From Sphingomonas japonica (GTDB lineage Bacteria; Pseudomonadota; Alphaproteobacteria; Sphingomonadales; Sphingomonadaceae), in assembly GCF_006346325.1 (NCBI RefSeq), contig NZ_VDYR01000001.1:1550001-1614000 (forward strand): a DNA stretch of 64,000 nucleotides, given 5' to 3'. The notes below the pieces were generated by a model. It made no database searches, was not told the origin of the DNA, and saw only the letters and a program-made list of their open reading frames with translations. A program made the translations under genes and the position numbers. Positions 21,612 through 40,479 of the stretch are shown piece after piece (positions within the stretch are counted from its first letter, which is position 1; each line of letters starts with the position of its first letter).

Positions 21612-21650
21612 CGCCTTGCGAGTCTCGCTGCGTCCCGGCATCCTCAACCG

Positions 21651-24261: not shown

Positions 24262-26476
24262 AGCCCATCCCCTGGAAATCGCCGCGCAGCGTCACGTCGA
24301 CGCCGTGGTTCATCCAGTATGCGCCGCTGGCGTTGACCGGCACAGTCGCCGGCAGCGCCGCGCCGTCCATCATCTCGATCCGATATTGCGCGTCAGCGTC
24401 GAGCCCGCGCAGCTGGATCGCCGACATCGTGTCGAGCTTGTGCGTCGATCCGACCAATGTGAACAGCGCCGCCTGGCTGCGGTCGGCCGCGACGTAGAGG
24501 TTGCTCCAGCGCGCATCCGCATCGTTGGCGCGATTGAGGCGATAGAGGTCGCCGCGCTGCACCGTCTCGCGGATCTGCTTGTACGCATAGACATAGCGCT
24601 TCGCGATCGTGAAATCGATCTCCTGCCAGTCGTTCAGGTCGGTGCCGATGCCGAGCCCGCCCTGCATCGCCGACAGGAAGCGGAACGCCAGCGTCGTCTG
24701 GCGCTGGTTGACCCAGTTCGGGCTGTCGGTGACCCACGCCATCATCGCGCCGGGGGCATAGGCCTGGGTAAAGCCGTCCTGGATCTGCATGCGATCGAAC
24801 GGGTCGGTATTGTCCGACGGCCACACCTGATCGGTGCGCGCCATGATGCCAAGATCGACGCGCCCGCCGCCGCCCGAACAGCTTTCGATCTCGATCGTCG
24901 GATGGCGCTTTCGCAGCTCGTCGACGATGTAATAGAGATTGTGGACATAGGCGACGTACAGCGTCTGCTGATCATCGACCTCCGCATCCGGCCAGCCGGG
25001 CTCGGACCAGTTGCGGTTATAGTCCCATTTCAGAAAGGCGATGTCGTTCTCGCGCAGCAGCTTGTCGAGCGCGGCAAGGACGTAATCGCGCACGTCGGTG
25101 CGCGCGAGATTGAGCACTAGCTGGTTGCGCCCCTGCGTCTGCGGGCGTCCGTCGAACTGCATCACCCATTCGGGATGGGCGCGGAACAGGTCGCTATCGG
25201 GATTGATCATCTCGGGCTCGACCCACAGCCCGAAATCCATGCCGAGCGCCTTCACCCGGTCGATCAACGGGGTAAGGCCCTCGGGAAACTTGGTGGGGTT
25301 CACCGCCCAGTCTCCCAGCCCTGCGCTGTCGTTGTTGCGCGCGCCGAACCAGCCGTCGTCCATCACGAAGCGCTCGACGCCCAGCGTCGCGGCGCGCTCC
25401 GCGAGCGCGATCTGGTCGGCCGCGTTGACGTCGAACTCGGTCGCTTCCCAGCTATTGTAGAGGATCTTGCGCAGCGGCACCGCACGCTCGGTCTTGCGGC
25501 CTTCGGATTCCAGCCCGTCATGCTTGGGCAGGATTTCCTGCCGCTGGAACCGATGGAAGATGCGCGACGCCTCCCCCATCCCGACATCCGAATAGCCCAC
25601 GTAGAAGGTCGGGGTCAGCAGCTTAGCGCCCGGCTGCAGGCGATAGGCGAAGTCGAACGGATTGTAGCCGCCGACGATGCGGATGCGCCCGGTCACGTCC
25701 TGGTCGAGGGTGATCCGCCACGATCCGCTCCACGCCAGCGCGCCGATCCAGGCCGGGCCGCTTTCCTCGGTGGTGTTGGCGCGGGTGATCGCGAACCACG
25801 GATTGTTCTGACTGCCGGTCGATCCGCGGCGGCTTTCGAGCACGGTCGAACCGGGCTTGAGCGCGCGCTGCTGCAACGTCCATTCCGCCGCCCAGCGCCC
25901 GGTCGAATAGTGGAGTTGATAGTCGTTGGCGACCGGGAGGGTGTAGCCTGCCGCCGCCGCTTGATCGACGCGGACGTCGGCAGTGCCCTTGTTCTCGATC
26001 ACCGCCGAGCGACCGATCACGCCGGTGTCGCGATCGATCCGATAGCGCAGCGTAACTTCCAGCGGCCGGTCGATATCCGAAAGCAAGACGCGGATTTCGT
26101 CGCCGTCGATTTCGTGGCTGCGATAGTTGAGCACCAGATCGCGGTTGCCGTCCGGGTAGCTGACCTTGAGCGCCGGTTCGGCATAGAGGCCCCCGCCCTG
26201 CCCGGCATATTCCTGCGGCACGATATTGGTGACGACGTCGAAGCCGCTATGCCCCGACAGTTCGGGCGCCTCGAGCGGGTCGCCTTTGTGCAGCCTTTTG
26301 CCCCAGTAGACCGATTGCAGCATGCCGCTGGCATTGATCTTGAACGCGTAGGTGACGTCGGCGCCGTCGAGGCGGAAGATGCGCGTTCCGGCATCGTAGC
26401 TGGCCTGTGCGAGCGCCGCACCCGGGCTCAGCAGCGCGCTTGCTGCCGCCAGTGCCTGCCAATGTCGTCGCTTCAT
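24242..26476 (-). CDS. Alpha-galactosidase, glycoside hydrolase family 36
   Basis: A 744-residue periplasmic enzyme that releases D-galactose from alpha-1,6-galactosides such as melibiose, raffinose or galactomannan side chains. Catalytic residues are Asp485 in FLKWDYNRN (nucleophile) and Asp555 in WPSDNTDPFDR (acid/base). Other GH36 stretches are FVMDDGWFG and ESCSGGGGRVD. The ATG at 26476 has GGAGGGG upstream and starts a signal peptide (MKRRHWQALAAASALLSPGAALA). It diverges from the TonB-dependent receptor; a TATCATACAT motif sits 15 bp upstream. Confidence 0.94.
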   Translation of the reverse strand: MKRRHWQALAAASALLSPGAALAQASYDAGTRIFRLDGADVTYAFKINASGMLQSVYWGKRLHKGDPLEAPELSGHSGFDVVTNIVPQEYAGQGGGLYAEPALKVSYPDGNRDLVLNYRSHEIDGDEIRVLLSDIDRPLEVTLRYRIDRDTGVIGRSAVIENKGTADVRVDQAAAAGYTLPVANDYQLHYSTGRWAAEWTLQQRALKPGSTVLESRRGSTGSQNNPWFAITRANTTEESGPAWIGALAWSGSWRITLDQDVTGRIRIVGGYNPFDFAYRLQPGAKLLTPTFYVGYSDVGMGEASRIFHRFQRQEILPKHDGLESEGRKTERAVPLRKILYNSWEATEFDVNAADQIALAERAATLGVERFVMDDGWFGARNNDSAGLGDWAVNPTKFPEGLTPLIDRVKALGMDFGLWVEPEMINPDSDLFRAHPEWVMQFDGRPQTQGRNQLVLNLARTDVRDYVLAALDKLLRENDIAFLKWDYNRNWSEPGWPDAEVDDQQTLYVAYVHNLYYIVDELRKRHPTIEIESCSGGGGRVDLGIMARTDQVWPSDNTDPFDRMQIQDGFTQAYAPGAMMAWVTDSPNWVNQRQTTLAFRFLSAMQGGLGIGTDLNDWQEIDFTIAKRYVYAYKQIRETVQRGDLYRLNRANDADARWSNLYVAADRSQAALFTLVGSTHKLDTMSAIQLRGLDADAQYRIEMMDGAALPATVPVNASGAYWMNHGVDVTLRGDFQGMGFILTRM

Positions 26477-26484
26477 CGACCCCT

Positions 26485-26503
26485 CCGTCTTATCATACAT
26501 AAA
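26485..26503. promoter_or_regulatory. TATCATA motif upstream of alpha-galactosidase
   Basis: TATCATACATAAA at 26491-26503 resembles the right half of the AT-rich palindromes at 26594 and 35971 (TATCATATTTA). The other half is poorly conserved. It lies in the divergent gap, just upstream of the alpha-galactosidase ribosome-binding site. Confidence 0.4.
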
Positions 26504-26593
26504 TGAACCCCACATCGCTCGGCATCGCGGAGTTTGGCGCTAGCTAACGCTTAGCTCGACGCATGTCGCCAAAAAAGTCACTCGACAAGGTCG

Positions 26594-26612
26594 ATTTAAT
26601 ATCATATTTAAT
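26594..26612. promoter_or_regulatory. Candidate GntR-family operator upstream of the TonB-dependent receptor
   Basis: ATTTAATATCATATTTAAT is a 19-bp palindrome with a single central C and one mismatched pair. It lies 39 bp before the receptor ATG. A closely related 19-bp palindrome precedes the GntR gene and the sugar ABC operon, which suggests one regulator for both units. Confidence 0.6.
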
Positions 26613-26650
26613 CTGCAAGCGGGAGAGGCCGCGGATCAAGGAGGGGAACC

Positions 26651-29419
26651 ATGAGCATGACGAACGCACGCAGTCTGGCCATTTTGCTCGCAGGGGTCAC
26701 GACGCTTGCCTGGGTGGCCCCCGCCGCCGCGCAGACGACCGATCCGTTGCAGACTTCCGACGACTCCTCTGCCGATCCGGCGCTCGACCAGGAAGGCGAA
26801 GAAATCGTCGTCACCGGCATCCGCGCCAGCCTCGAGAACGCGCTCGATATCAAGCGCGACGCGATCGGCGTGGTGGATGCCATTTCCGCCGAGGACATCG
26901 GCGATTTCCCCGATGCCAACATCGCCGAGTCGCTGCAGCGCATCTCCGGCGTGTCGATCGACCGCGTCAACGGCGAGGGCCGCGGCATCACCGTTCGCGG
27001 ACTGGGGCCGGAATTCAACACGGTGCTGCTCAACAACCGCCTGCTGTCGACCGAGGTCGGCGGACGCTCCTTTTCGTTCGACATCCTCTCGTCCGAACTG
27101 ATCAGCGGCGCCGAAGTCTATAAATCGTCCGAAGCGCGGCTGCAGGAAGGCGGCATCGGTTCGACCGTGATCCTGCGCACCGCGCGCCCGACCGATCGCG
27201 CCGGCACCCATTTCGCGGGCAGCGCCGCCGGTCGCCACGACAGTACGTCGGAAGAGATCACGCCGTTCCTGTCGGGCGTGCTCAGCCATAGCAACGCCGA
27301 TCGGACGTTCGGCGTGCTGGTCAGCGCGGTCTACGACAAGCGCAATTTCAACCTGACCAACATCTCGACCGATGGCTGGATCATCGACCAGACGATCGAC
27401 ACCGACGGCGACGGCGCGACCGACACCAGCGGCGTGTCGCTGCCCCGCACGCTCAACTTCACCGCCACCGACAGCAGCCGCGAGCGGATTGGCGGCACCT
27501 TCGCGCTCGACTGGGTGTTCTCCGACCAGCTCAAATTCACGATGGACGCGCTCTATACCCAGCAAAAGGTGGCGAGCCGCACCAACCAGCTCGGCTATTA
27601 TGTCGATCCCGCCCGGATCACCGATGCCACGGTCAACGCCAATGGCACCGCGACCGAATTCACGGTGCTGCCCGCGACTGCTAATGCCGGGCTGGCGTCG
27701 GACAATATCGTATCGACCGCGCCGCAGGATGCCCGCACCTATCAGATCGGCGGCAACTTCACCTGGACGCCAAATGACGAACTGACGGTCGTCGTCGATG
27801 GCGCGCATTCGAACTCGCGAGATGCGGCCGACCAGCTGTTCTACGTGGTCGGCACGCGTCAGGTCGGCGTCACCCCAACCTTCATCCTCGACGGCCCCGG
27901 CGGGCTGCCGACGATGACCAACGTGCTTCCCGCAAACGACCGTTCGCGTCCCCTGCTGCATTGCTGTTCGGAACGCGGCGGCCGCAACGGCGACACCACC
28001 AACCAGGCGACGGTCGACGCGACCTGGGACATCGACGGGCTGCTCGACAAGCTGCAGGGCGGCGTGCTGTTCACCAATCGCAAGAAGATCAGCATCGTTC
28101 GCGAATCGCCCGAGCCGCTCGGCTGCTTCTATTGCGGCTATCTCGCCGAAGCGCCGGGATCGCTGTTCAGCGATTTCAGCGCCGACGTACTCGGCCGTCC
28201 GATGACGTGGCTCGATTACGACCGCGACGCGCTGGTCGCCTATTACGGGTCGGACGCCGCGGTTTCGCAGGTCGGCGACGAAAGCCAGGCGGCGATCGAC
28301 GCGCGCAACCGCTTCCTCGCCGTCTATCGCGGGAACAATAACAGCCTCGATCCGATCGATCGCGAGCGCGGGTCGGGCACGGTGCGCGAGAATACCTTCG
28401 CCGCGTATCTGCAGGCGTCGTTCGAGGGTGATTTCGGCGGCAGCCGGTGGACGGCAATGGCGGGCGGGCGCGTCATCCACACCGACCTGCACGCCACCGG
28501 TTATTCGGTGACCTTGCTCGACATCATCCAGAACCCCGCCGATCCGACCGCGGCGGTTCCGGTCTACAGCCCGACCATCCCGGTCGATGCCGACAACAGC
28601 TACACCTATTTCCTGCCGACGCTCAATTTCCGGCTCAACATCACCGAGGATCTGGTGTTCCGCCTCGCCGGATCGCGCACGCTGACCCGGCCGACGCTGA
28701 GCCGCCTGGGGCTGTCGCAGGACTTCGTGTTCCGCCCGCCCAACTCGAATACGGTGAGCGGCGGCAATCCGTTCCTGAAGCCCTTCCTGGCGTGGAATGC
28801 CGATGCCGGGGTCGACTATTATCTCAACCGGTCGAGCTATGTCAGCATCAACGGTTTCTACAAGAAGCTGCAGAACTTCATCATTTCGGGCCAGCAGCCG
28901 GAGGAGTATTTCGGCCTGACCTTCATCGCCAACCGCCCCTACAACGCCCAGAACGGCGAGGTATACGGGCTCGAGGCAGCGGTGCAGACGACGTTCGACT
29001 TCCTGCCCGCACCGTTCGACGGCTTCGGGGTCTCCGCCAACTATACCAAGGTCGAAAGCTCGATCCGGTTCGATCCGTCGCTCAGCAACCAGACGTTCAA
29101 TGTCGAGGGGCTGTCGGATTCGGCCAACCTGATCGCCTTCTATGAAAAGGGGCTGTTCCAGTTCCGCGCCGCGTACAACTGGCGCGACGGCTTCCTGCGC
29201 CAGACCTTCGGGCCGCAGAGCCAGCCGGAGAATATCGGCGCGTACAGCCAGGTCGACCTGAGCGGCAGCATCAAGATCAACAACCAGCTGTCGTTCTTCG
29301 GCGAAGTCCTCAACCTCACCAACGAGAAGTTCCGCAGCTTCTCGCGCTTCGAGGAGCGGCTGATCACGCTGTCGGACCAGGGACGCCGCATCACCGCCGG
29401 GCTGCGCGCCAGCTTCTGA
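26651..29419 (+). CDS. TonB-dependent receptor (carbohydrate-associated)
   Basis: A 922-residue outer-membrane transporter. A signal peptide (to about residue 28, VAPAAAQ) is followed by a TonB box (EEIVVTG), the plug domain (IAESLQRISGVSIDRVNGEG, ITVRGLGPEFNTVLLNNR) and a long beta-barrel ending GLRASF, the usual C-terminal aromatic signature. GGAGGGG lies upstream of the ATG. Beside an alpha-galactosidase, an epimerase and a sugar operon, it most likely imports an alpha-galactoside oligosaccharide, energised by TonB-ExbBD. The exact ligand is inference. Confidence 0.93.
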   Translation: MSMTNARSLAILLAGVTTLAWVAPAAAQTTDPLQTSDDSSADPALDQEGEEIVVTGIRASLENALDIKRDAIGVVDAISAEDIGDFPDANIAESLQRISGVSIDRVNGEGRGITVRGLGPEFNTVLLNNRLLSTEVGGRSFSFDILSSELISGAEVYKSSEARLQEGGIGSTVILRTARPTDRAGTHFAGSAAGRHDSTSEEITPFLSGVLSHSNADRTFGVLVSAVYDKRNFNLTNISTDGWIIDQTIDTDGDGATDTSGVSLPRTLNFTATDSSRERIGGTFALDWVFSDQLKFTMDALYTQQKVASRTNQLGYYVDPARITDATVNANGTATEFTVLPATANAGLASDNIVSTAPQDARTYQIGGNFTWTPNDELTVVVDGAHSNSRDAADQLFYVVGTRQVGVTPTFILDGPGGLPTMTNVLPANDRSRPLLHCCSERGGRNGDTTNQATVDATWDIDGLLDKLQGGVLFTNRKKISIVRESPEPLGCFYCGYLAEAPGSLFSDFSADVLGRPMTWLDYDRDALVAYYGSDAAVSQVGDESQAAIDARNRFLAVYRGNNNSLDPIDRERGSGTVRENTFAAYLQASFEGDFGGSRWTAMAGGRVIHTDLHATGYSVTLLDIIQNPADPTAAVPVYSPTIPVDADNSYTYFLPTLNFRLNITEDLVFRLAGSRTLTRPTLSRLGLSQDFVFRPPNSNTVSGGNPFLKPFLAWNADAGVDYYLNRSSYVSINGFYKKLQNFIISGQQPEEYFGLTFIANRPYNAQNGEVYGLEAAVQTTFDFLPAPFDGFGVSANYTKVESSIRFDPSLSNQTFNVEGLSDSANLIAFYEKGLFQFRAAYNWRDGFLRQTFGPQSQPENIGAYSQVDLSGSIKINNQLSFFGEVLNLTNEKFRSFSRFEERLITLSDQGRRITAGLRASF

Positions 29420-29432
29420 TCGAATAAGGGGG

Positions 29433-29466
29433 ACGGTCGCGGCTGAAGGGTCGCGGCCGTTTATTT
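29433..29466 (+). terminator. Possible terminator after the TonB-dependent receptor
   Basis: ACGGTCGCG and CGCGGCCGT pair over 9 bp with one G-U pair and a 10-base loop, followed by TTATTT. It sits between the receptor stop and the epimerase start, so the epimerase may be expressed partly by read-through or from its own promoter. Confidence 0.5.
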
Positions 29467-29488
29467 CGTGAGCAGAAGGCAACAGGCG

Positions 29489-30535
29489 ATGGTGGTGGTG
29501 CGCAGCCGATCGATCGCCTTGCCAAACGGCACCGATGCACAGCTGTTCACCCTAGGTGCCGGGACAGGGCTGACCGTCACCCTGTCCGATCTCGGCGCCA
29601 CGCTGATCGCGATCTCGGCGCCCGACCGTGACGGCGGTGTCGACAATGTCCTGCTCGGATCACACGATCTCGCCGATTATCCGGTCGCCGGTTCGGCGCG
29701 GTCGCATCATTATCTCGGCGCGACCTGCGGGCGCTTCGCCAATCGCATCGCCGGCGCACGCTTCGTGCTCGACGGCCACGAATATCGGGTCGCCGCCAAT
29801 GATCCGCCGCACCATCTCCATGGAGGAGTTGTCGGGTTCGACGCGCTCCGGTGGAATGCACAGCTCGTCACCGATGGCGTGACGATGCAGTTGGAGAGCG
29901 CCGACGGCGACCAGGGCTTTCCCGGCACGCTGACCGTGCAGGCGACGTTCCGCATCATCGACGGCGACACGCTGGAGATCGCGTACGAAGCGACAAGCGA
30001 CCGGCCGACCCACGTCAACCTCACCAGCCACGGCTATTTCAACCTGGCCGGACGTGACAGCATAACGGCCGCCGACCACCTGCTGACGATCGCTGCCGAC
30101 CGCTATCTGCCGATCGCCCCCGATGCGATCCCGCTCGGTACGCTCGAGCCGGTTGTCGGCACGCCGTTCGACTTTCGCACACCGCGCGCGATCGGCGAGC
30201 GGATCGACGCCGATCATCCCCAGATCGAGGCAGGCGACGGTTACAACCACTGCTTCGCACTCGATACGCCGCGTCTCGACCGCACCAGCGCAGTGCTCAG
30301 CCATCGCGGCAGCGGCCGGCGCATGGCAATCGCGACCAGCGTGCCGGGGCTGCAACTCTATAGCGGCAACGCACTGCCAGACGACGGTCTCGCCCGCGGC
30401 CGCCGCAGCGGCGTCGCGATCGAAGCGCAGCATTTTCCCGATACGCCCAATCGTCCGGGCTTTCCGGCCACGCGGCTCGATCCCGGCGAGACGTGGCGTT
30501 CGGTCACTCGGCTGACGTTCAGCGCCGACGGGTGA
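29489..30535 (+). CDS. galM: Aldose 1-epimerase (galactose mutarotase)
   Basis: A 348-residue cytoplasmic mutarotase that interconverts alpha and beta anomers of galactose or other aldoses. Family motifs are GATCGRFANRI, HHLHGG (catalytic His), THVNLTSHGYFNLAG (second His) and a late Glu region (RSGVAIEAQHFPD). No signal peptide is visible. The ATG at 29489 is preferred over the GTG at 29468. It fits the neighbourhood, because galactose oxidation needs the beta anomer. Confidence 0.9.
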   Translation: MVVVRSRSIALPNGTDAQLFTLGAGTGLTVTLSDLGATLIAISAPDRDGGVDNVLLGSHDLADYPVAGSARSHHYLGATCGRFANRIAGARFVLDGHEYRVAANDPPHHLHGGVVGFDALRWNAQLVTDGVTMQLESADGDQGFPGTLTVQATFRIIDGDTLEIAYEATSDRPTHVNLTSHGYFNLAGRDSITAADHLLTIAADRYLPIAPDAIPLGTLEPVVGTPFDFRTPRAIGERIDADHPQIEAGDGYNHCFALDTPRLDRTSAVLSHRGSGRRMAIATSVPGLQLYSGNALPDDGLARGRRSGVAIEAQHFPDTPNRPGFPATRLDPGETWRSVTRLTFSADG

Positions 30536-30574
30536 GCGCTTCCAGGTCCAGTGCTCTTAGCTCTCCGCAAGGTC

Positions 30575-31276
30575 CTAAAGCCAGCCCATCCGCCCGCCAT
30601 CTGTGACGACGTCCTCGCCGGTGATGAAGCGCGCCGCGTCCGACGCCAGGAACCACGCCAGTTCGGCGACATCCTCGGGCCGACCAATATCGGCTGGGTC
30701 GATCACTTCCTTGCCGGCTGCGATATTGGGGCTGGCGTGCAGCATCGCCGTGTCGATCGCGCCGGGCAGGATCGCGTTGCAGCGGATGCCGAGCGGCTTG
30801 CCCTCGATCGCGGTCGAGCGCGTGAGGCTGACCAGCGCCGCCTTCGACGCGGCATAGGATGCGACGTCGGGCGAAGTGCGCCGCGCATGTACCGAGGCGA
30901 TGTTGACGATCGCGCCGCCCGGTCGCATCGCCGCCAGCGCGCGGCCCGACAGCAGCGCAGGGGCGACGAGGTTGACCGCCAGCAGCCGCTGCCAGTCGTC
31001 GGCGCGATGCTCGGCAAGCGGTTTGAAGATCATCATCCCGGCGACGTTGACGAGCATGTCGATCCGTCCCAGCCGATCGAGCGCAGCATCGAACGCGTCG
31101 GCCACCTGCGCGGCATCACTCAGGTCGGCCGGAAGTATCAGCGCATCGGATACCGGCTCGGGAAAATCACGGTCGATCAGCGCCAGCTGCACGCCGCCCG
31201 CGGCGAACCGGCGCGCGACGGCTCCGCCGATCCCGCCTGCGGCGCCGGTGATCAGCGCGACGCACTCGCTCACCAT
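30575..31276 (-). CDS. Short-chain dehydrogenase (candidate galactose dehydrogenase)
   Basis: A 233-residue SDR. The cofactor motif is ITGAAGGIGGAV, followed by LALIDRD (Asp favouring NAD). The catalytic residues are Ser in VNIASVHA and Tyr/Lys in ASYAASKAAL. The ATG at 31276 overlaps the dgoD stop by seven bases and has GGGAG nine bases upstream, so it is the last gene of the ABC-dgoD operon. Being beside a D-galactonate dehydratase, oxidation of D-galactose to galactonolactone is the most economical guess; specificity is not proven. Confidence 0.8.
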   Translation of the reverse strand: MVSECVALITGAAGGIGGAVARRFAAGGVQLALIDRDFPEPVSDALILPADLSDAAQVADAFDAALDRLGRIDMLVNVAGMMIFKPLAEHRADDWQRLLAVNLVAPALLSGRALAAMRPGGAIVNIASVHARRTSPDVASYAASKAALVSLTRSTAIEGKPLGIRCNAILPGAIDTAMLHASPNIAAGKEVIDPADIGRPEDVAELAWFLASDAARFITGEDVVTDGGRMGWL

Positions 31277-32415
31277 TCGCGCAGGCTCCCGTCGCGCCCG
31301 CGCCACACCGGATTGCGCCAGCGATGTGGGCTTGCCGCCGCCTCGCGCACGCGCGCCTCGTCGATGTCGATGCCCAGCCCCGGCCCGTCGAGCGCGGCGA
31401 CCGACCCCTGCGTCACCGCCAATACTTCGGGGTTGGAGACATAGGTGAGCAGGTCGGCATCGGCCTGGTTGTAATGGATGCCGAGCGATATCTCCTGAAT
31501 GACGAAATTGGGCGACACGGCGCTGACCTGAAGACACGCCGCCAGCGCCAGCGGGCCGAGCGGGCAATGCGGGGCGAACGCGACATCGTAGGTCTCGGCC
31601 ATCGCGGCGATGCGGCGGCATTCGGAAATGCCGCCGGCATGGCTCAAGTCCGGCTGGGCGATGTCGATCGCCCCCAGTTCGAAGAAGCGCCGGAAATCCC
31701 AGCGGCTGTAGAGCCGCTCCCCGAGCGCGATCGGCACGCCGGTGCCTTGCGTGATCTGCGCGATCGCCTCGGGCTGCTCGCTCAGCAGCACTTCCTCGAC
31801 GAACAGCGGGCGGTGCGGGGCGAGTGCGTGGACCAGCTGGCGCGCCATCGGACGATGCACGCGGCCGTGGAAATCGATGCCCACGTCGATGCCGGTCGCG
31901 CGAACCGTTTCGAGCCGCTCGACCGCGGCGTCGACCGCGGCCGGGCTGTCGAGCCAGTCCATGTCCTCGGTACCGTTCATCTTGACCGCATCGAAGCCCT
32001 GTTCGCGCCGAGCTGCGGCAGCTTCGGCGACGTCGCCCGGCCGGTCGCCGCCGATCCAGGCATAGACGCGCAGCCGGTCGCGCACGCGCCCGCCGAGCAG
32101 GTCGGCGACCGGCACGCCGAGCCGCCGGCCCTTGAGGTCCCACAGCGCCTGGTCGATCCCCGACAGCGCCGACATCAGTACCGGCCCGCCACGATAGAAT
32201 CCCATGCGGTAGAGCAGCTGCCAGATATCCTCGATGCGTCCGGCGGGCAGCCCGGTGATGCGATCGCGCGCCGCCTCCATCGCGCCGGCGACGGCTTCGG
32301 CATGACCCTCGAGGCTTGCCTCGCCCCAGCCGACCGCGCCATCGTCGGTCTCGATCCGGACGAACAGCCAGCGAGGCGCCACGATGAAGGTTTCGAGGCG
32401 GGCGATCTTATCCAT
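31270..32415 (-). CDS. dgoD: D-galactonate dehydratase
   Basis: A 381-residue enolase-superfamily enzyme that dehydrates D-galactonate to 2-keto-3-deoxygalactonate (De Ley-Doudoroff route). It is collinear with Escherichia coli DgoD throughout. The metal ligands are Asp181, Glu207 or its neighbour Glu208, and Glu233 (in GERLYSRWDF). The catalytic histidines are His183 (DFHGR) and His283 (APHCPLG). One oddity is EEV where the family usually has EEP. The ATG at 32415 overlaps the permease gene by eight bases. Confidence 0.92.
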   Translation of the reverse strand: MDKIARLETFIVAPRWLFVRIETDDGAVGWGEASLEGHAEAVAGAMEAARDRITGLPAGRIEDIWQLLYRMGFYRGGPVLMSALSGIDQALWDLKGRRLGVPVADLLGGRVRDRLRVYAWIGGDRPGDVAEAAAARREQGFDAVKMNGTEDMDWLDSPAAVDAAVERLETVRATGIDVGIDFHGRVHRPMARQLVHALAPHRPLFVEEVLLSEQPEAIAQITQGTGVPIALGERLYSRWDFRRFFELGAIDIAQPDLSHAGGISECRRIAAMAETYDVAFAPHCPLGPLALAACLQVSAVSPNFVIQEISLGIHYNQADADLLTYVSNPEVLAVTQGSVAALDGPGLGIDIDEARVREAAASPHRWRNPVWRGRDGSLREW

Positions 32416-33418
32416 GCGGTTCCTCGCGCTTGGGGGCGGGTTGGGATGTCGGCGCGCGCGGGCGGACGAGAAAGCCCAGGCTTCCCAGCGTTCCGGTCTG
32501 GCGCATCCGATCGATGATGACCGCGACCAGCAGGATGCCGCCGCGCACGACATATTGGTAGAAGGTGGGGACGTTGAGCAGGTTGAGCGCGTTCTGCGCC
32601 GCGCCCATGATCAGCACGCCGATCACCACCCCTGCGATGGTCCCGACCCCGCCTGCCAGCGACACGCCGCCGAGCACGCAGGCCGAGATCACCGCGAGTT
32701 CGAGCCCGATGCTGGTGTTGGGCTGGCCGCTGGTGATGCGCGCGGCGAGGATGATCCCGGCAAGCCCGGCGACCAGGCCCTGCGCGACGAACACCAGGAT
32801 GCGCACCCGCGTTACCGGCACGCCTGCCAGCCGCGCCGCTTCGGGATTGCCGCCGATGGCGAGGATGTTGCGCCCGAACACCGTACGGTTGAGGACGAAG
32901 CCGAACAGCGCGAAGCTGCACAGCATCACCCAGATCGGATAGTTGAGCCCGAGAAACGCGCCCGATCCCAGTTCGTAGAAGCGCTCTGCCGGGATCGCGA
33001 CCGATTCCCCGCCCGACGCGAGGAAGGCCAGCCCGCGCACGATCTCCATCATCGCCAGCGTCACGATCAGCGAATTGACCTGCAGCCGGGCGACGACGAC
33101 GCCGTTGACGAAGCCGACCGCCGCGCCCCCGAGCAGTCCCGCGACCACGCCAAGCAGCACGCTGCCGCTATTCGCGATCACCACTGCCGCCAGCACGCCC
33201 GACAAGGCCACCGTCGATCCGACCGACAGATCGACTTCACGCATCGCCAGTACCAGCATCATCGTCGCCGCGATCGTCCCGACCAGCGTAACCGACAGCA
33301 GCAGGCCGCGCAGGTTCCGGGGTCCGAGAAAATCGGGAACGAACAGCGACAGTGCGAAGACCAGGACGAGCAACGCGGCAAGCGGCGCGAGCCGGCGCAG
33401 GAGAGCGGACGAGGTCAT
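32408..33418 (-). CDS. Sugar ABC transporter permease (AraH/RbsC type)
   Basis: A 336-residue inner-membrane permease of the CUT2 family, with about 8-10 hydrophobic helices. Family stretches are REVDLSVGSTVALSGVLAA, VNSLIVTLAMMEIVRGLAF, FGRNILAIGGNPEAARLAGV (the loop that contacts the ATPase) and GGVSLAGGVGTIAGVVIG. It overlaps the ATPase gene by four bases and dgoD by eight bases. With the neighbouring binding protein and ATPase it forms an arabinose/galactose-type importer. Confidence 0.92.
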   Translation of the reverse strand: MTSSALLRRLAPLAALLVLVFALSLFVPDFLGPRNLRGLLLSVTLVGTIAATMMLVLAMREVDLSVGSTVALSGVLAAVVIANSGSVLLGVVAGLLGGAAVGFVNGVVVARLQVNSLIVTLAMMEIVRGLAFLASGGESVAIPAERFYELGSGAFLGLNYPIWVMLCSFALFGFVLNRTVFGRNILAIGGNPEAARLAGVPVTRVRILVFVAQGLVAGLAGIILAARITSGQPNTSIGLELAVISACVLGGVSLAGGVGTIAGVVIGVLIMGAAQNALNLLNVPTFYQYVVRGGILLVAVIIDRMRQTGTLGSLGFLVRPRAPTSQPAPKREEPHG

Positions 33419-34926
33419 AAAGCGTTCTCGATCGATCGTACGGGTTCGGGAAGCGCCAGCCGCAGCACACGGTCTGGCGACAAGTCGGCGCGCGCGACGA
33501 CGCCGGAGATCGCACCGTCGCGCATGACGATGACGCGGTCGGCGAGACCCAGCACTTCGGCGAGGTCGCTCGACGCGAAGACGACGGTGCCGCCGCGCTC
33601 GGCAAAGCCGAACAGCTGGTCGTACAGTTCACTGCGCGCGCCGACGTCGATTCCGCGCGTCGGTTCGTCGAGCAGCAGGATATCGGACCCGGCGAACAGC
33701 CAGCGCGCCAGGATCGCCTTTTGCTGGTTGCCTCCCGACAGGCTGGCGATTGCGGTTTCGGCGCTGGCGGTTCGGATCCCAAGCTCGGCGATCTGCGCCG
33801 CCGCAGCTTCGCGTTCCGCGCGGGGGCTTGTCCATGCCGAACCGCTGCCAAGGTTGCGCCACGCGAGCGCGATATTTTCGCACACCGACGCGCGTGGGAC
33901 GATCGCCTGGTCCTTGCGGTCCTCGGGCGCGAGTGCCAGCCCGGCGGCGATCGCGGCGCGCGGATCGCCCGGGGCGATGGCGTTCCCGTGTGCCGACACG
34001 GTCCCGGCGGTGGGATGCTCGGCGCCGAAGAGAAGGCGGAACAGCTCGGTCCGCCCCGCCCCCACCAGTCCGAACAGCCCGACGACCTCGCCGCGATGCA
34101 CCGACAGCGTAGCCGGTGCCGATAGGCCCTTCCCCGTCAGGCCATCGACCCGAAGTGCGGCTCTGCCGGTCGTGCGCGGGCGATAACGATAGATATCGGC
34201 AACCTCGCGCCCGGCCATCGCGGTGATGAGCCGCGCCTCATCGGCCGGACCGACATTCGCAGCATCAAGCACATGCCGCCCGTCGCGCAGCACCGTCGCG
34301 GTGTCGGCGAGTGCGAACACTTCCTCCATGCGGTGGCTGACGTAAAGGATCGCGCAGCCCTGATCGCGCAGTTCGCGGATGATCGCCATCAGCCGCTCGG
34401 TCTCGCGCGTGCTCAGCGAACTGGTCGGCTCGTCGAAGGCGAGGATGCGCGCGTTGCGCAGCAAGGCGCGGCCGATCTCGATCATCTGGCGCTGGCCGAT
34501 CGACAGGTCGCGCACGCGCGTCGCTGGATCGATCGCCTCGCCGAGCCGATCGAGCACGGCGCGTGCGCGATCGTGGAGCGCCCGGCGGTCGAGCAGTCCC
34601 CCGCGTACCGGCAACGCGCCGAGCATCAGGTTCTCCGCGACGCTCAGGTCGGGGGCGAGCTGCAGTTCCTGGTGAATGATCGCGACGCCCGCCGCCTGGC
34701 TGTCGCGCGGCGAGGCGAACTCGGCGGGGCGACCATCGATGGCGATGCCGCCCGAATCGGGGCGATATTCGCCGGCGAGAATCTTGAGCAGCGTCGATTT
34801 GCCCGCACCATTCTCGCCGATCAGCGCGCGGACCTCGCCTGCGCCGACGGCAAAATCGATGCGGTCGAGCGCCAGCACGCCGGGAAAGCGCTTGGTGACG
34901 CCGCGATATTCGATCAGCGCGGTCAT
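33415..34926 (-). CDS. Sugar ABC transporter ATP-binding protein (AraG/MglA type)
   Basis: A 503-residue tandem ATPase of the CUT2 family. The first half has Walker A GENGAGKST, signature LSIGQRQMIEIGRAL and Walker B ILAFDEPTSSL. The second half has a degenerate Walker A (GLVGAGRTE), signature LSGGNQQKAILARWL and Walker B ILLLDEPTRGID, as in AraG and MglA. It overlaps both neighbours by four bases, so the three transporter genes are translationally coupled. Confidence 0.94.
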   Translation of the reverse strand: MTALIEYRGVTKRFPGVLALDRIDFAVGAGEVRALIGENGAGKSTLLKILAGEYRPDSGGIAIDGRPAEFASPRDSQAAGVAIIHQELQLAPDLSVAENLMLGALPVRGGLLDRRALHDRARAVLDRLGEAIDPATRVRDLSIGQRQMIEIGRALLRNARILAFDEPTSSLSTRETERLMAIIRELRDQGCAILYVSHRMEEVFALADTATVLRDGRHVLDAANVGPADEARLITAMAGREVADIYRYRPRTTGRAALRVDGLTGKGLSAPATLSVHRGEVVGLFGLVGAGRTELFRLLFGAEHPTAGTVSAHGNAIAPGDPRAAIAAGLALAPEDRKDQAIVPRASVCENIALAWRNLGSGSAWTSPRAEREAAAAQIAELGIRTASAETAIASLSGGNQQKAILARWLFAGSDILLLDEPTRGIDVGARSELYDQLFGFAERGGTVVFASSDLAEVLGLADRVIVMRDGAISGVVARADLSPDRVLRLALPEPVRSIENAL

Positions 34927-35915
34927 GCCGCTTCCCGCGCGAGCACGGCGCGGAAATTGCCGCGATCGATCAGGATGCCGGGGGTCAGCGTTTCCGCCGG
35001 AGGGCGCAGGCCTTGCGTGATCCAGCGATACATCGCGGCGCTGGTATCATATCCGTGGCGCCGCGCGCTCAGCAGCACTGACGCGAGAAAACCGGTCGGG
35101 TGCGGGCGTTCGAGCTCGGCGATCGCCGCCTGCGACCCGCCGATGCCGACCCCGATCACCTGGCGGGCGCCCAGCCGCAATCCCTCGGCTGCGCGCACTC
35201 CGCCGACTACGGTCTCGTCGTTCAACCCCAGGATGATCCAGTTGGTAACGCCGCCCGAGCGAGTCAGCACCGGCGCCGCCGCAGTGAACGCGCCCTCGGT
35301 ATCCGTCGTGCGCTGCGGCGCGTCGAAGATGCGCGCTTGCGGCACGCCGCCCGCGACCAGCGCGCGCACCGCACCCATCGTGCGGTCGCGCCCGGTCTCG
35401 AGACTGTCGTGCGCGATCCGCAGAACGCCAAGCGTGTCGAGACTCCAGCCGCGCCGCTTCGCCTCGGCCAGCGCCGCCTCCCCTGCGGTCGCACCGATCG
35501 CGACGGCGGAGATGCCGACATGCGGAATACTCGCGATCGGTGCCCCTCTGGGACCGGTCAGGCGATCGTCGACCGACAGGATCTTCATCCCGGTGCGCGC
35601 CCCGAAGCCGGCAATCGCCGGCCCAAGCCGCGGATCGGGCGCGCAGATCACCAGGCCTTGCGCATAACGGGCGTAGAGCGTGCCCAACGCCGCCAGCACG
35701 CGGTCGCCATCCTCGCCACCGATCCGCAGCAAATCGAAACCGAGCGCGTGCGCCGCGCGTCCGGCGAACGCCCATTCGTCCTGGAACCACTGCACTTCGG
35801 GCATTTTCACGACGAAGCCGATGCGGATGCCGTCGGCGGCGCCCGCGCAGCCGCCGAGCATGGCAATGCTGGAGAGCGACGTGCCGATCAGCACGCCCCG
35901 CCGCGTCACGCCCAT
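34923..35915 (-). CDS. Sugar ABC transporter substrate-binding lipoprotein (AraF-like)
   Basis: A 330-residue periplasmic binding protein. The ATG at 35915 has GGGGAGGA upstream. The leader MGVTRRGVLIGTSLSSIAML ends in a lipobox LGGC, so it is predicted to be membrane-anchored, which is unusual for a Gram-negative AraF. The mature domain begins IRIGFVVKMPEVQWFQDEW, like AraF, and has LGLNDETVVGGVRAAE near the C-terminal lobe. It is the first gene of the operon AraF-AraG-AraH-dgoD-SDR. The ligand is L-arabinose or D-galactose by homology; context favours D-galactose. Confidence 0.9.
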   Translation of the reverse strand: MGVTRRGVLIGTSLSSIAMLGGCAGAADGIRIGFVVKMPEVQWFQDEWAFAGRAAHALGFDLLRIGGEDGDRVLAALGTLYARYAQGLVICAPDPRLGPAIAGFGARTGMKILSVDDRLTGPRGAPIASIPHVGISAVAIGATAGEAALAEAKRRGWSLDTLGVLRIAHDSLETGRDRTMGAVRALVAGGVPQARIFDAPQRTTDTEGAFTAAAPVLTRSGGVTNWIILGLNDETVVGGVRAAEGLRLGARQVIGVGIGGSQAAIAELERPHPTGFLASVLLSARRHGYDTSAAMYRWITQGLRPPAETLTPGILIDRGNFRAVLAREAA

Positions 35916-35970
35916 TCGAGAATCCTCCCCTTTCTTGATCGCCATCATGCGGGATCGATCGACATTCGTC

Positions 35971-35989
35971 AATTTATATCATATTTATT
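35971..35989. promoter_or_regulatory. Candidate GntR-family operator between the ABC operon and its regulator
   Basis: AATTTATATCATATTTATT is a 19-bp imperfect palindrome around a central C. It lies in the 149-bp divergent gap between the sugar ABC operon and the GntR gene and shares the ATATCATATTTA core with the site at 26594. The position suits repression of the operon and autoregulation. Confidence 0.65.
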
Positions 35990-36064
35990 ATCGGATAGAA
36001 GATGCTGGAGGCGGGTGATCGTACGGGCTACCGTCGCAGCGCCCGGCCGGGTAGGACAGACGCG

Positions 36065-36811
36065 ATGGATGTTGCAACCAAGGCGACGCGCCCGACGCCC
36101 CCCGACGACGGCCGCAACCTGACCGGGCGGATCGTCGAGGATCTCGGCCGCTCGATCGTGACCGAGACATTTCGGCCCGGCGTCGCTTTTCCGACCGAGG
36201 CCGAGCTGTGCCTGCGCTATCAGGCCAGCCGTCCGGTGGTGCGCGAAGCCGTCAAGATGCTGACCGCCAAGGGCCTGCTGCTCGCCCGCAAGCGTGCCGG
36301 GACGGTGGTGCAGCCCGAGGACAGCTGGAACCTGTTCGATCCCGACGTACTCAGCTGGATGCTGCAACGCGATTTCTCTATCGACCTGCTGATCGACTTT
36401 ACCGAGATCCGTATGTCGATCGAGCCGCGCGCCGCCACCCTCGCCGCACACAGCGCCGACGGGCCGCAGCGCCGCGCGATCCTCGAGGCGATCGATCGCA
36501 TGGTCGAGGCCGAACATGCCGATACCGATGCGCTCGACGCCGACATCGCGTTCCATATCGCCGTGCTCAATGCCAGCAACAACCGCTTCATGCGGCAGTT
36601 CACCGACCTGATCGAAACGACGCTGCGCTACTCGATCCGGCGAACCAACGAATATAAGGGCGTGTCGCGGGCGAGCGCGCGCGATCACAAGAAAGTCGCC
36701 GACGCGATTATCGGCGGCAATGCCGACGGCGCGGCGACGACGATGCGCGACCTGATCCAGGGCGCGCTCGAACTGTTGCTCGCTGCCGGTCGCCACCCGC
36801 CGCGGCCCTAA
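36065..36811 (+). CDS. GntR/FadR-family transcriptional regulator
   Basis: A 248-residue regulator. The winged helix-turn-helix (residues about 20-85) has FPTEAELCLRYQASRPVVREAVKMLTAKGLL. The C-terminal FCD effector domain has metal-ligand positions in DADIAFHIAVLNASNNRF and ARDHKKVADAI. FCD regulators bind sugar acids or other carboxylates; with dgoD next door, galactonate is a reasonable effector, as for DgoR. It is transcribed divergently from the ABC operon, and candidate operators lie upstream and at three other local promoters. Confidence 0.9.
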   Translation: MDVATKATRPTPPDDGRNLTGRIVEDLGRSIVTETFRPGVAFPTEAELCLRYQASRPVVREAVKMLTAKGLLLARKRAGTVVQPEDSWNLFDPDVLSWMLQRDFSIDLLIDFTEIRMSIEPRAATLAAHSADGPQRRAILEAIDRMVEAEHADTDALDADIAFHIAVLNASNNRFMRQFTDLIETTLRYSIRRTNEYKGVSRASARDHKKVADAIIGGNADGAATTMRDLIQGALELLLAAGRHPPRP

Positions 36812-36814
36812 AGC

Positions 36815-39043
36815 TCAAGGCTCGCCGCAGCGCGTCGTCGGCTCGGGAACGTGTGCGACGGGTATCGATGCGGGGCGCTTCTCGCCCGGACGATAGCTCG
36901 GCAGCTTCGCGACTTCGGCGGCATCGAGCAGCACCGGGCGCATCTGTCCGGCAGCGTACAGCGCGGCCTGGTCATCGAAATGCGGCGAGGCCGGGTCGCC
37001 GCTCTCGCCGCCTGCCGACACCGCCCAGGCGCGGGTCTTGGCGCCGAACTCGACCACGGCGACGAAGCTGTTGCCGCTGGTGCCATAGGCGCAGCGCTGC
37101 CCCTGCGGCCACTCTACCCCGAACGCGGCGAGCGAGCCGAAATTGCCCGAGGTGAAGCCGACCGGAAAGCTGGGCCGGCCGTCGTCGAACCGCGGTGCGA
37201 TCGCCCCGTCCAACCGCTGGAAGCGATTGACCCGTCCCCAGGCGACGCGCCACCCGCCCCAGTCGCGCTGTATCCGCGCGAGCGCGGTATCGAGCGCGTC
37301 GAGCCGCGCCGCATCGGTGGTGCGCTCGTCCCAATATTGGAACAGCGGCATCGATGCCGCCGCCGCCTTCGGCCCTTCCTGCTCCCACAATGCCTCGCCC
37401 CACATCACCGCCAGCGTGGTCGCCTCCGAAGTCGTCGACCAGCGCTTGTCCCAGCTATCGAGCATCGCGACCGGGCCGGCCAGCCGCGCGCGGCGCGGAT
37501 CGGCGGCGGGCAGCGCATCGAACCCGCGCTTGAGCCATGGCACCTGCGTTTCGAACAGCGGCAGCGCCGGATCATAGGCGAGGCGCTGCAACCCGCCGGG
37601 CGTCAGCGCGTCGTCGGCGGCGAGCATCCGCGTCGCGTGGATACCGCGCGGATTTTCCCCCTCCTGATCCATGTAGCGCGGATAGGCGCTGGCATTTGGG
37701 CTGGAGCGGCCAGCTACCGACCACGGCCAGTTGTTCGAATTGGCGACCCAGCCCGATGCCGGCCGCACGACGCTTGGCAGCGTGTTCAGCGGATGCAGTC
37801 CCTTCCAGTCGGTCGCCGGATCGCTGCCGTCGACCGGCTTGCGATAGTCGAAGCGGTCGTCGCGCACCGGCACGAACTGCGGATGCAGATAGCCAATCGA
37901 TCCATCGGCGGCGGCGACAATGGTGTTGTTCGAGGAGTTGGCCTTGCGATCCGATATGTCGACGAACGCATCGATCGTCGCCGCCTTGGTACGCAGGAAC
38001 GATTGCTCGAGCGCGGCACGCGGCGAATCGAGCATCGCCACCGCGATCAGCTTGCCGCCCTCGCGCCGGATGATCGGCCCGTGATGCGTCGCCAGCGTCG
38101 TGAAGCTGCGCTGAGCCAGCGAACCGTCGGATTGCCGCACGCGCACCACGATCGGGCGCTCCTCGACGCCGCGCCATTCGCTGCCATAGCGATATTCGAG
38201 CCGACCGCCGCGGTGTGCCACCGTCTCTGTGAACTCGTCGATATTGTCGACGCCGCTCGACGTGTGCATCCAGCCGAGCCGCGGATTGAACCCCTGATAG
38301 ACGAAGAACTGCCCCCAGGTCGATGCGCCATAGACGTCGAGGCCGGCGTCGCTCGTCACCTGCGCTTCGGAGCGGAAATAGAAGGACGTGTGCGGGTTGA
38401 TCAGCAGCAGCGCCTTGCCGTCGCGGGTGCGCGGCGCAGCGATGGCGATGCCGTTCGACCCCTGCGGCTCGCGCATCCGCCAGCGATCGGCCGACGCGAC
38501 CTGCACGCGGCCATCACCGTACAACTCCGCTAGCGCCCTGAGGTCGATGCCGCGTTCGATATCGCCGCCGATGCTGCCTTCGGAGAAGGCCAGCGCCATC
38601 CACGGCTCGAACCGTGTCAGCACGCGGGGGCGCACGTCGCGGTGCGTCGCCAGATAGTGGTTCAGGCCGCCTGCCCATGCGTCCATCAGCGTGCGCAGCC
38701 ACGGCGGCGATGCGGCATAGTCGCGGCGCAGATCGGCTTCGTCGATATACAGCCGCTGGCGCACGTCCTGCCACAAAGCGGTCTCGCCCTCGGCCTCGGC
38801 CAGCCGCCCCAGCGCGACCAGATAGTTGCGTTCGATCCGGGGAAAATCGTCCTCCGCCTGGGCATAGATCATCCCGAACACCGCATCGGCGTCGCTCTGC
38901 CCGTGGACATGTGCGATGCCGCGTGCGTCGCGTGCGATCGTCACGCGCGCGGCATGGTCGGGGGTTTGCGGAGCGGCGGCGAGCGGCGGCGCGACCGCGC
39001 CCAGCAGCACGATCACGGCACCGGCATTGCTTCGAAACCCCAT
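36815..39043 (-). CDS. Penicillin acylase family protein
   Basis: A 742-residue periplasmic N-terminal-nucleophile amidase precursor. A signal peptide (residues 1-24) and an alpha-chain region (GIAHVHGQSDADAVFGMIYAQAEDDF) are followed by the cleavage site and beta-chain nucleophile Ser196 in QGSNGIAIA. Other family stretches are LINPHTSFYF and VDNIDEFTE. Members cleave acyl amides such as beta-lactam side chains, acyl-homoserine lactones or cyclic imides. It diverges from the M24 gene across an AT-rich motif related to those of the sugar genes. The substrate is unknown. Confidence 0.88.
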   Translation of the reverse strand: MGFRSNAGAVIVLLGAVAPPLAAAPQTPDHAARVTIARDARGIAHVHGQSDADAVFGMIYAQAEDDFPRIERNYLVALGRLAEAEGETALWQDVRQRLYIDEADLRRDYAASPPWLRTLMDAWAGGLNHYLATHRDVRPRVLTRFEPWMALAFSEGSIGGDIERGIDLRALAELYGDGRVQVASADRWRMREPQGSNGIAIAAPRTRDGKALLLINPHTSFYFRSEAQVTSDAGLDVYGASTWGQFFVYQGFNPRLGWMHTSSGVDNIDEFTETVAHRGGRLEYRYGSEWRGVEERPIVVRVRQSDGSLAQRSFTTLATHHGPIIRREGGKLIAVAMLDSPRAALEQSFLRTKAATIDAFVDISDRKANSSNNTIVAAADGSIGYLHPQFVPVRDDRFDYRKPVDGSDPATDWKGLHPLNTLPSVVRPASGWVANSNNWPWSVAGRSSPNASAYPRYMDQEGENPRGIHATRMLAADDALTPGGLQRLAYDPALPLFETQVPWLKRGFDALPAADPRRARLAGPVAMLDSWDKRWSTTSEATTLAVMWGEALWEQEGPKAAAASMPLFQYWDERTTDAARLDALDTALARIQRDWGGWRVAWGRVNRFQRLDGAIAPRFDDGRPSFPVGFTSGNFGSLAAFGVEWPQGQRCAYGTSGNSFVAVVEFGAKTRAWAVSAGGESGDPASPHFDDQAALYAAGQMRPVLLDAAEVAKLPSYRPGEKRPASIPVAHVPEPTTRCGEP

Positions 39044-39070
39044 CGCACGCTCCCCTTCCAGCTTGCCACC

Positions 39071-39089
39071 CGTTTAAGTCATATATATT
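39071..39089. promoter_or_regulatory. TCATATATATT motif between acylase and M24 genes
   Basis: GTCATATATATT (39078-39089) matches TATCATATTTATT of the 35971 site at 10 of 13 aligned positions; the left half is less conserved. It lies in the 77-bp divergent gap, a natural place for control of both genes by the same GntR-type regulator. Confidence 0.4.
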
Positions 39090-39120: not shown

Positions 39121-40479
39121 ATGCGCGTCGTTCATCGCCCGATCGCCATTCCCGACTTCGGGGTGATCGATCCGCCGCCCGCACTGAACGCGAGCATCTA
39201 TCGCGAGCGTTGTCGCCGTGCGTTCGCCGCGGCGCAAGCCGATTGGCTGATAGTCTATGCCGATCGCGAGCATTTCGCGAACATCCTGTTCCTGTCGGGA
39301 TTCGAACCGCGGTTCGAAGAGGCGTTGCTGCTGCTCGGCAAGGACGATCGCACCATTCTGATCACCGGCAACGAATGCGTGCCCTACGCAGACGTCTCGC
39401 CGCTGCCGGAACTCGAGGTGTGGCTGGCGCAGACGATGAGCCTGCTCGGCCAGGATCGCAGCCAGGCGCCGCGCCTGACCGACGTGCTGCGCGACTGCGG
39501 CATTTCGGGAAGCGACAGTGTCGCGCTGGTCGGCTGGAAATATCTCGGCGCCGATGAATGGGAGGAAGGCCCGGCGCCGTCGTTCGTCCCCGCCGCCTAT
39601 GTCGCCGCGCTCGATCGGGTGGCAGGCAGCGTCATCGACCGCAGCGACATCCTGCTCCATCCCGAGACCGGGCAGCGCTCGATCATCGACGCCGACCAGA
39701 TCGCAGTGTTCGAAGCCGCCGCCGCGCGCGGCTCTGAAATGGTCTGGGCGATCGTGACGGGCACGCAGCCGGGCGAGCGCGAGAGCGATGCCGCCGCACG
39801 GTTCGGCTATCGCGGCATGCCGTTCAACGTCCACACCATGCTGACCAGCGGCGGCCCGCGCGAAGGCAGCGTCAACGGCCTGAAAAGTCCGGGACAGCGC
39901 CGCATCGCCAGGGGCGACGGCATTTCCACCGCGGTGGGACTATGCGGCGGGCTGACCGCGCGCGCCGGACTGGTGACCGACGAGGATGCCGAATTCGTCA
40001 CCGTCGCCAGCGGCTATTTCGCCGCGATCGCTCAATGGTATGCGGCCGCCGATATCGATGTTCCGGGCGGCGAGATCCACGATCGCGTCACCGGCCATCT
40101 CGCCGACGCCGGGCTGCGCTCGCTGCTCAATCCCGGCCATCTGACCGGACATGAGGAATGGTCGCACACGCCAATCCGGCCCGGTTCCTCCGATCGTATC
40201 CGATCGGGAATGCATATGCAGGTCGACATCATCCCGACGCCGATGCGCGACGGCTGGGCGCTCAATTGCGAAGACAGCGTGGTGTTCGCCGACGCCGCAT
40301 TGCGCAGCGAGCTTGCCGAGCGGCATCCGCAGATGTGGGGCCGGATGCAGGCGCGCCGCAGCTTCATGCGCGATACGCTGGGGATCGCCGTGTCCGAATC
40401 GGTATTGCCGCTGTCGTCGGTGCCGGCATGCCTCGCGCCGCTGTGGCTGAGGAGCGATTGCCTGCTGGCGGTGGAATAA
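39121..40479 (+). CDS. M24 family metallopeptidase-like protein (Xaa-Pro aminopeptidase/creatinase fold)
   Basis: A 452-residue protein. The N-terminal creatinase-type domain (ADWLIVYADREHFANILFLSGFEPRFEEALLLL) precedes a pita-bread domain (about residues 200-430). Some metal-site positions look present (HLTGHEEWSH, QVDIIPTP, NCEDSVVFAD), but the usual first Asp pair is not obvious in GDGISTAVGLCGGLTARAGL, so activity may be altered. The ATG has GGAG(A) upstream. It pairs divergently with the acylase gene. Its role in the sugar region is unclear. Confidence 0.78.
   Translation: MRVVHRPIAIPDFGVIDPPPALNASIYRERCRRAFAAAQADWLIVYADREHFANILFLSGFEPRFEEALLLLGKDDRTILITGNECVPYADVSPLPELEVWLAQTMSLLGQDRSQAPRLTDVLRDCGISGSDSVALVGWKYLGADEWEEGPAPSFVPAAYVAALDRVAGSVIDRSDILLHPETGQRSIIDADQIAVFEAAAARGSEMVWAIVTGTQPGERESDAAARFGYRGMPFNVHTMLTSGGPREGSVNGLKSPGQRRIARGDGISTAVGLCGGLTARAGLVTDEDAEFVTVASGYFAAIAQWYAAADIDVPGGEIHDRVTGHLADAGLRSLLNPGHLTGHEEWSHTPIRPGSSDRIRSGMHMQVDIIPTPMRDGWALNCEDSVVFADAALRSELAERHPQMWGRMQARRSFMRDTLGIAVSESVLPLSSVPACLAPLWLRSDCLLAVE

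Follow-up and report, generated by a model that had tools for sequence, protein, structure and literature searches.

A predicted GntR/FadR regulon with conserved operators in an alpha-galactoside and galactose gene cluster of Sphingomonas japonica

Regulators of the FadR subfamily of GntR proteins, DgoR among them, recognize A/T-rich sites with a GT-N3-AC spacing (PMC4494728). Comparative genomics of FadR-subfamily regulons in Proteobacteria has found such A/T-rich sites in divergent promoters, and TonB receptors belong to some of these regulons (HypR, HutC), one in Sphingomonadales (PMC5343134). The Escherichia coli member DgoR is a repressor (PMC12288454) whose gene lies beside that of galactonate dehydratase and whose sites overlap promoters (PMC12288454, PMC4494728). 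Here we describe an AT-rich word repeated before several genes in a 64,000-nucleotide stretch of the Sphingomonas japonica genome (NZ_VDYR01000001.1, positions 1,550,001 to 1,614,000; hereafter the window, in whose coordinates positions are given). We consider it highly likely that the copies of this word are operators bound by the GntR/FadR protein whose gene starts at 36065, which would serve as the local regulator of a cluster for alpha-galactoside uptake and oxidative galactose catabolism, repressing its promoters until released by a sugar acid.

An initial annotation of the window had pointed to four AT-rich words, at 26594, 35971, 26491 and 39078, each of which reads directly at its position. 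The first two had been presented as 19-bp palindromes with a central C; their positions and words stand, and their symmetry is approximate, since about that C one of nine base pairs is mismatched in the 26594 word and two of nine in the 35971 word (read from the sequence), which makes both near-palindromes only. The other two had been taken for half-sites. That description does not hold for 39078, where GTCATATATATT (39078-39089) is the right part of a full site; the 26491 word is real but weak, and is treated separately below. The three stronger elements are as follows.

26594 to 26612, forward strand: predicted strong operator in the TonB-receptor promoter (ATTTAATATCATATTTAAT), with the 17-mer TTAATATCATATTTAAT at 26596-26612
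35971 to 35989, forward strand: predicted strong operator between the ABC-galactonate dehydratase-SDR operon and gntR (AATTTATATCATATTTATT), with the 17-mer at 35973-35989
39073 to 39089, forward strand: predicted full operator in the acylase/M24 intergenic region (TTTAAGTCATATATATT), matched by the 17-mer search with 0 mismatches

The window has a G+C content of 61-69% (2-kb steps), and the word is close to unique in it and in the genome as a whole. Allowing up to three mismatches, the pattern TTTAATATCATATTTAWT matched the window at the 26594 and 35971 places only, one of them on both strands, with no match in 100 shuffles; over the entire 2.86-Mb genome the same two places were again the only ones returned. 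A 17-mer consensus widened with the sequences of relatives, TTWAWRTCATAYWTAWT, occurs without mismatch at exactly three genomic places, corresponding to window positions 26596, 35973 and 39073. Its five remaining rows all carry three mismatches and comprise three other places and two reverse-strand readings of strong sites, against five rows for a reversed-pattern control. The 12-mer RTCATAYWTAWW, a pattern composed after the sites had been seen, occurs without mismatch at exactly four places, which are the four words of the initial annotation (reversed control, one). The random scatter over the genome that had been named as telling against a regulon is thus not what is found: all of these perfect copies lie within the cluster. 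Chance AT-rich sequence was considered as an explanation and ruled out by the shuffles, the genome scan and the near-uniqueness of both words. Two further window matches with three mismatches, at 17448 and 47488, were discarded, the latter being a start-codon region.

Of 295 genomes of the genus searched, 19 others encode a close orthologue of the regulator (66-79% identity), and the named genomes L082 and L086 bring the relatives to 21; the seven named relatives identified are all Sphingomonas. Within the stretches around these 21 regulators, we recorded the best match to the 17-mer consensus in the ~280 bp around each gene start. Every relative carries at least one site at three or fewer mismatches in the compared stretch. 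With at most two mismatches, the word stands at the start of the sugar-binding protein gene in 11 of 11 rows and of the TonB receptor gene in 15 of 15 (14 genomes, L035 and L040 being the same one); with at most three, it stands at the start of the GH36 alpha-galactosidase gene in 14 of 14 rows (in L075, L077, L082 and L086 this is a site held in common with the receptor) and of the M24-like gene in nine of nine. Combined, these four classes have a site in 49 of 49 rows, and the orientation of the site is constant in every row within each class, which suggests that its asymmetry matters. Galactonate dehydratase genes that head their own operon have a site at three or fewer mismatches in six of nine rows. 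Downstream operon genes, used as controls, never came below six mismatches (0 of 57 rows: SDR, 20; epimerase, 15; ATPase, 11; galactonate dehydratase behind ABC genes, 11). The sites are therefore found at the same genes across species and are absent from controls, and a word so placed is very probably the binding place of the cluster's own regulator. The genome G005 illustrates this locality: its four best matches genome-wide, with one or two mismatches, all fall within the same cluster.

A position weight matrix built from 48 distinct sites of the relatives, with the window excluded, ranks the window in the order 35971 (38.9 bits), 26594 (36.8), 39071 (30.1) and 26485 (12.9); under this matrix the relatives' own sites score 18.5-37.7 bits. 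Information reaches 2.3 bits per column inside the word and is at most 0.35 in each of the four flanking columns on either side. For 200 column-shuffled matrices run over the same window, the best place averaged 14.1 bits with a maximum of 27.9; all three strong sites score above that maximum, and the 26485 site falls short of it. The word also follows the regulator gene. Six genomes of the genus with a close orthologue contained 23 matches (at most two mismatches; control, 5), as against 30 matches in 31 genomes of the genus without one (control, 31). Over these 37 genomes the one-sided p for co-occurrence of site and regulator is 0.0003, or 0.0007 once the window's genome is removed, both values ignoring relatedness; because of their high background, 24 genomes from other families were excluded from the count. 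Sites thus accompany the regulator gene, and in its absence matches do not rise above the control. Conservation in the 21 relatives, near-uniqueness, co-occurrence with the regulator, and the four acylase/M24 pairs described below give strong comparative support to the proposal, made in the initial annotation, of a putative local GntR regulon over these promoters. In kind the finding is ordinary: a GntR/FadR regulon of local reach whose predicted operators are conserved.

The genes concerned, which together make up a set for alpha-galactoside uptake and oxidative galactose catabolism via galactonate, are arranged as follows; the leftward operon from 35918 runs from the sugar-binding protein through the ATPase, permease and galactonate dehydratase to the SDR dehydrogenase.

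24242 to 26476, reverse strand: GH36 alpha-galactosidase (PF02065, PF16875, PF16874)
26651 to 29419, forward strand: TonB-dependent receptor (TIGR01782, 629.8 bits, cut-off 310)
29468 to 30535, forward strand: aldose 1-epimerase (PF01263; PRK11055, 291 bits, cut-off 240)
30575 to 31273, reverse strand: SDR dehydrogenase, from its context probably a sugar 1-dehydrogenase (best match PRK07231, 173 bits, below the cut-off of 215)
31270 to 32415, reverse strand: galactonate dehydratase (PRK14017, 577 bits, cut-off 311)
32408 to 33418, reverse strand: AraH-like sugar permease (PRK11285, 441.5 bits, cut-off 378)
33415 to 34926, reverse strand: AraG-like sugar ABC ATPase (PRK11288, 675.8 bits, just below the cut-off of 689)
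34923 to 35918, reverse strand: periplasmic sugar-binding protein (PF00532)
36065 to 36811, forward strand: GntR/FadR (FCD) regulator
36815 to 39043, reverse strand: acylase of the penicillin/cephalosporin acylase family (PF01804; best PDB match 1keh, 1.3e-42)
39121 to 40479, forward strand: M24-like protein (Creatinase_N at 20.6 bits, below the cut-off of 22; homologues carry the source names M24 metallopeptidase or Xaa-Pro aminopeptidase)

To the left of the cluster, 21606-23693 encodes a bifunctional protein of phenylacetate degradation, of PaaZ type (TIGR02278, 999 bits); the genomic 17-mer and 12-mer searches placed no site near it.

The 36065 protein has a GntR winged helix (PF00392, 54.4 bits, cut-off 27) and an FCD domain (PF07729, 83.3 bits, cut-off 24.3), and its best PDB match, at 1.9e-30, is 7c7e, the C-terminal domain of DgoR (PMC12288454). 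As the closest solved relative, DgoR is a natural comparison. Its metal ligands D146, H150 and H195 are kept as D160, H164 and H208, and the two docked-pocket arginines, R102 and R179, are conserved along with them. The core of the site, RT-CAT-AY, has the GT-N3-AC spacing, but its R and Y positions are mixed (of 48 sites, 26 have A and 22 G at R, and 37 have T and 11 C at Y), and symmetry about the axis of this core, 0.641, is hardly greater than the 0.630 about the C first proposed. These scores, together with the lack of covariation noted below, do not support reading the site as a strict palindrome, and that reading was rejected. The two systems also differ: the proteins share 32% identity, the operator word differs from the E. 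coli IR1 (PMC12288454), and the regulon proposed here takes in a TonB receptor, GH36, an ABC importer, an acylase and an M24-like gene, with the kinase and aldolase encoded elsewhere. A literature search over titles and abstract openings returned no account of this regulon (most subscription journals and RegPrecise lay outside its scope). The main text of PMC5343134 contains neither 'galact' nor 'DgoR' and that of PMC4494728 no 'Sphingo' (supplements and RegPrecise likewise outside scope), and the available part of PMC9123166 has no bearing on the site.

Placement of the strong sites relative to promoter-like elements is what one would expect of a repressor that excludes RNA polymerase. Three putative promoters are involved.

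26582 to 26610, forward strand: receptor promoter, TCGACA (26582-26587), 17 bp, TATTTA (26605-26610) within the operator, read from the sequence
35959 to 35987, forward strand: gntR promoter, TCGACA (35959-35964), 17 bp, TATTTA (35982-35987) within the operator; the pair is present in 6 of 12 rows
35944 to 35972, reverse strand: ABC-operon promoter, TTGACG, 17 bp, CATGAT, with its -35 element overlapping the operator edge (one found, 0.2 expected)

Among the receptor rows, TNGACA precedes a TATTTA, TATTTG or TACTTA hexamer inside the site by 15-18 bp in 12 of 15 (spacer 15 bp in eight of the 12, 17 bp in the window), a pattern scored without a random control. A dimer of the 36065 protein would most likely repress by covering the -10 elements of the receptor and gntR promoters, and would also cover the ABC-operon -35 element and the acylase/M24 promoter region; polymerase occlusion with autoregulation is the simplest reading of this layout. 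The expected signal for release of the regulator from DNA would be one of the pathway's sugar acids, with galactonate the likeliest. If so, a TonB receptor, an inner-membrane importer and enzymes would be joined under one small FadR-type protein, and the cluster would provide a candidate regulon, with base-level operator positions, for outer-membrane galactoside uptake and oxidative catabolism in Sphingomonas. Two other repeats lie in the same intergenic region. At 26582-26594, TCGACAAGGTCGA forms a 5-bp stem that overlaps the receptor -35 element and the strong-site edge; it was flagged as terminator-like on both strands and is probably incidental. A second palindrome, AGCTAA-CGC-TTAGCT (26542-26556), sits between the GH36 and receptor promoters, and no relative has both of its arms in a GH36 or receptor upstream region.

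The fourth site, at the alpha-galactosidase start, is of a different grade.

26485 to 26505, forward strand: weak site (CCGTCTTATCATACATAAATG), containing TATCATACATAAA at 26491-26503

By our count it has four mismatches, with a good right half. Nowhere else in the 64 kb reaches its score, the strong sites and their reverse readings aside, and this holds with the GH36 sites removed from the matrix; 18 of 2000 shuffles of the local 112 bp attain it. Divergent GH36/receptor regions provide a comparison: in four of five, namely the window, L082, L086 and L075, a TATCATACA word is found close to the GH36 start; its distance to the strong site is 109, 110, 112 and 99 bp and its score 12.9, 13.4, 7.5 and 7.4 bits, respectively. 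The best second word of the fifth region, L077, is 140 bp away, differs in sequence and scores 10.8 bits. Within the weak word of the window, TATGAT reads on the minus strand, which is that of the GH36 gene.

Several observations weigh against the view that the sites are operators of a DgoR-like repressor acting on the whole cluster. The 26485 score falls below that of the weakest of the 48 relatives' sites (18.5 bits), and the site may serve as an operator of low strength, as the -10 box of GH36, or as both; the original suggestion that the regulon reaches all four promoters is supported with a reservation on this site. Because the matrix sites were picked with the consensus, the ranking of the window by matrix is not fully independent. 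The row counts are swollen by sister genomes (e.g. L035/L076, L066/L068, L071/L072), and the word before galactonate dehydratase in L036, L037 and L038 has four, five and four mismatches. A stricter consensus promoter scan returned nothing at the receptor or the acylase/M24 region. The halves of the site lack palindrome-type covariation (G6 occurs with C12 in 3 of 48 sites), and the upstream region of E. coli dgoR has no match to the matrix, its best place scoring 7.7 bits. Finally, of 11 contacts listed for docked D-galactonate (PMC7674646), five are identical in the 36065 protein and six differ, so that the full set is not retained and the protein is classed as DgoR-like rather than as DgoR.

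Other explanations for the word were weighed against operators of a local repressor. The same regulator might activate some of the promoters, or, in the alpha-galactosidase/receptor region, might loop the DNA from the weak site to the strong one, as the recurrence of the TATCATACA word at similar distances in four of five divergent regions, the window included, would allow. We regard this as improbable: the strong site covers -10- and -35-like elements, a position suited to occlusion, and E. coli DgoR represses (PMC12288454), while for looping in particular the L077 second word has both a different distance and a different sequence, the 99-bp interval breaks phasing, and the weak words reach only 7.4-13.4 bits. 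There is a still smaller chance that the word is no operator and is conserved as part of promoters, being an AT-rich -10 region. Hexamers resembling a -10 element do overlap it in 12 of the 15 receptor rows and in 6 of the 10 M24 rows, and the weak GH36 word includes the TATGAT just described; yet a genome full of promoters holds only three copies of the 17-mer and four of the 12-mer, the word tracks the regulator gene, and no -35/-10 pair runs along the motif strand in 11 of the 14 rows for GH36 and in 6 of the 12 for the binding protein.

The word could also be bound by a transcription factor encoded elsewhere, and one candidate is a 54% paralogue of the regulator at 2.438 Mb of the same genome, divergent from a symporter-galactonokinase-aldolase operon. 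This protein belongs to the same family and has an AT-rich word at its own divergent promoter (5754-5774 of L031, which is 2432000-2446000 of the genome) that scores 17.9 bits with the cluster matrix; that word, TTGATTTATAAGATTTATTGC, has a different core and is not picked up by the 17-mer search even with three mismatches allowed. Across the genus, matches follow the orthologue of the linked regulator, and a close paralogue (at least 66% identity) is missing from 7 of 20 regulator-bearing genomes, all seven of which have cluster sites. We therefore hold it very unlikely that a factor other than the 36065 protein is the one that binds. Paralogue and regulator, each with its own related word, would be a case of operator divergence between sister regulators; paralogue-group members of some other genomes have AT-rich words of similar look.

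With the 36065 protein kept as the preferred regulator, the acylase/M24 pair is the part of the finding with room for surprise; its predicted operator is kept even where the pair is displaced. Twelve genomes whose compared stretches lacked the M24-like gene were searched for held-out pairs; four have the gene and eight do not at E 1e-60. All four pairs carry a site between the genes (34.9, 30.0, 25.2 and 20.4 bits): those of L114 and L116 occupy the usual place just beyond the compared stretch, that of G075 is ~9 kb away, and that of G016 is on a different contig from the regulator gene and retains the operator word. This ties an acylase and an M24-like protein to galactoside use and gives a clue to their function. 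We offer only as a speculation, with small odds, that the regulon serves galactose conjugates with an amide-linked group, the receptor importing them, GH36 freeing galactose, and the acylase and M24-like protein opening the amide part. The operator kept on a separate contig in G016 speaks for it and the absence of a close M24-like gene from 8 of the 21 relatives against; if true, N-acylated galactosides would have a route of catabolism not described before. The M24-like protein is one of a large group, with 2693 homologues at E 0.001 out of 7996 candidates scored; among the 120 homologues listed, most have no match to the Pfam M24 model, and named relatives occur in Mesorhizobium, Rhizobium and Pantoea.

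Neighbors of the word and cluster in other genomes fit galactoside and galactose use. The word lies near the start of GH2 genes in L036, L037 and L038, whose stretches have no visible ABC genes, which suggests beta-galactosides as substrates there, and L066 and L077 have lactonase-family genes in the interval from the binding-protein gene to gntR; for the lactonase-family genes of the S. japonica genome itself, at 2.30-2.31 Mb, the best match within the stretches scanned has six mismatches. The only galactonokinase-family match of the S. japonica genome, at 2.435 Mb, is beside the aldolase, a sodium:solute symporter and the 54% paralogue. G005 has the word 12 bp before its galactonokinase open reading frame, as does G101 (20.4 bits in both), and the kinase stretches of the other 18 regulator-bearing genomes score at most 9.7. 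That galactonokinase passes to the cluster regulator wherever the paralogue is absent was considered and does not hold as a rule: G005 and G101, the two of 20 with a kinase site, are both among the seven without a close paralogue, and the other five have none within ~1.5 kb on each side. Separately, by our own reading, 11 of 21 galactonokinase loci (L094, L096, L098-L100, L103, L105-L107, L109 and L110) have a TRTCNTAYAA-type word directly before the kinase match. This word is similar to the TTGTAGTACAA core of IR1 of E. coli DgoR, and a further FadR-type regulator may use it as its operator.

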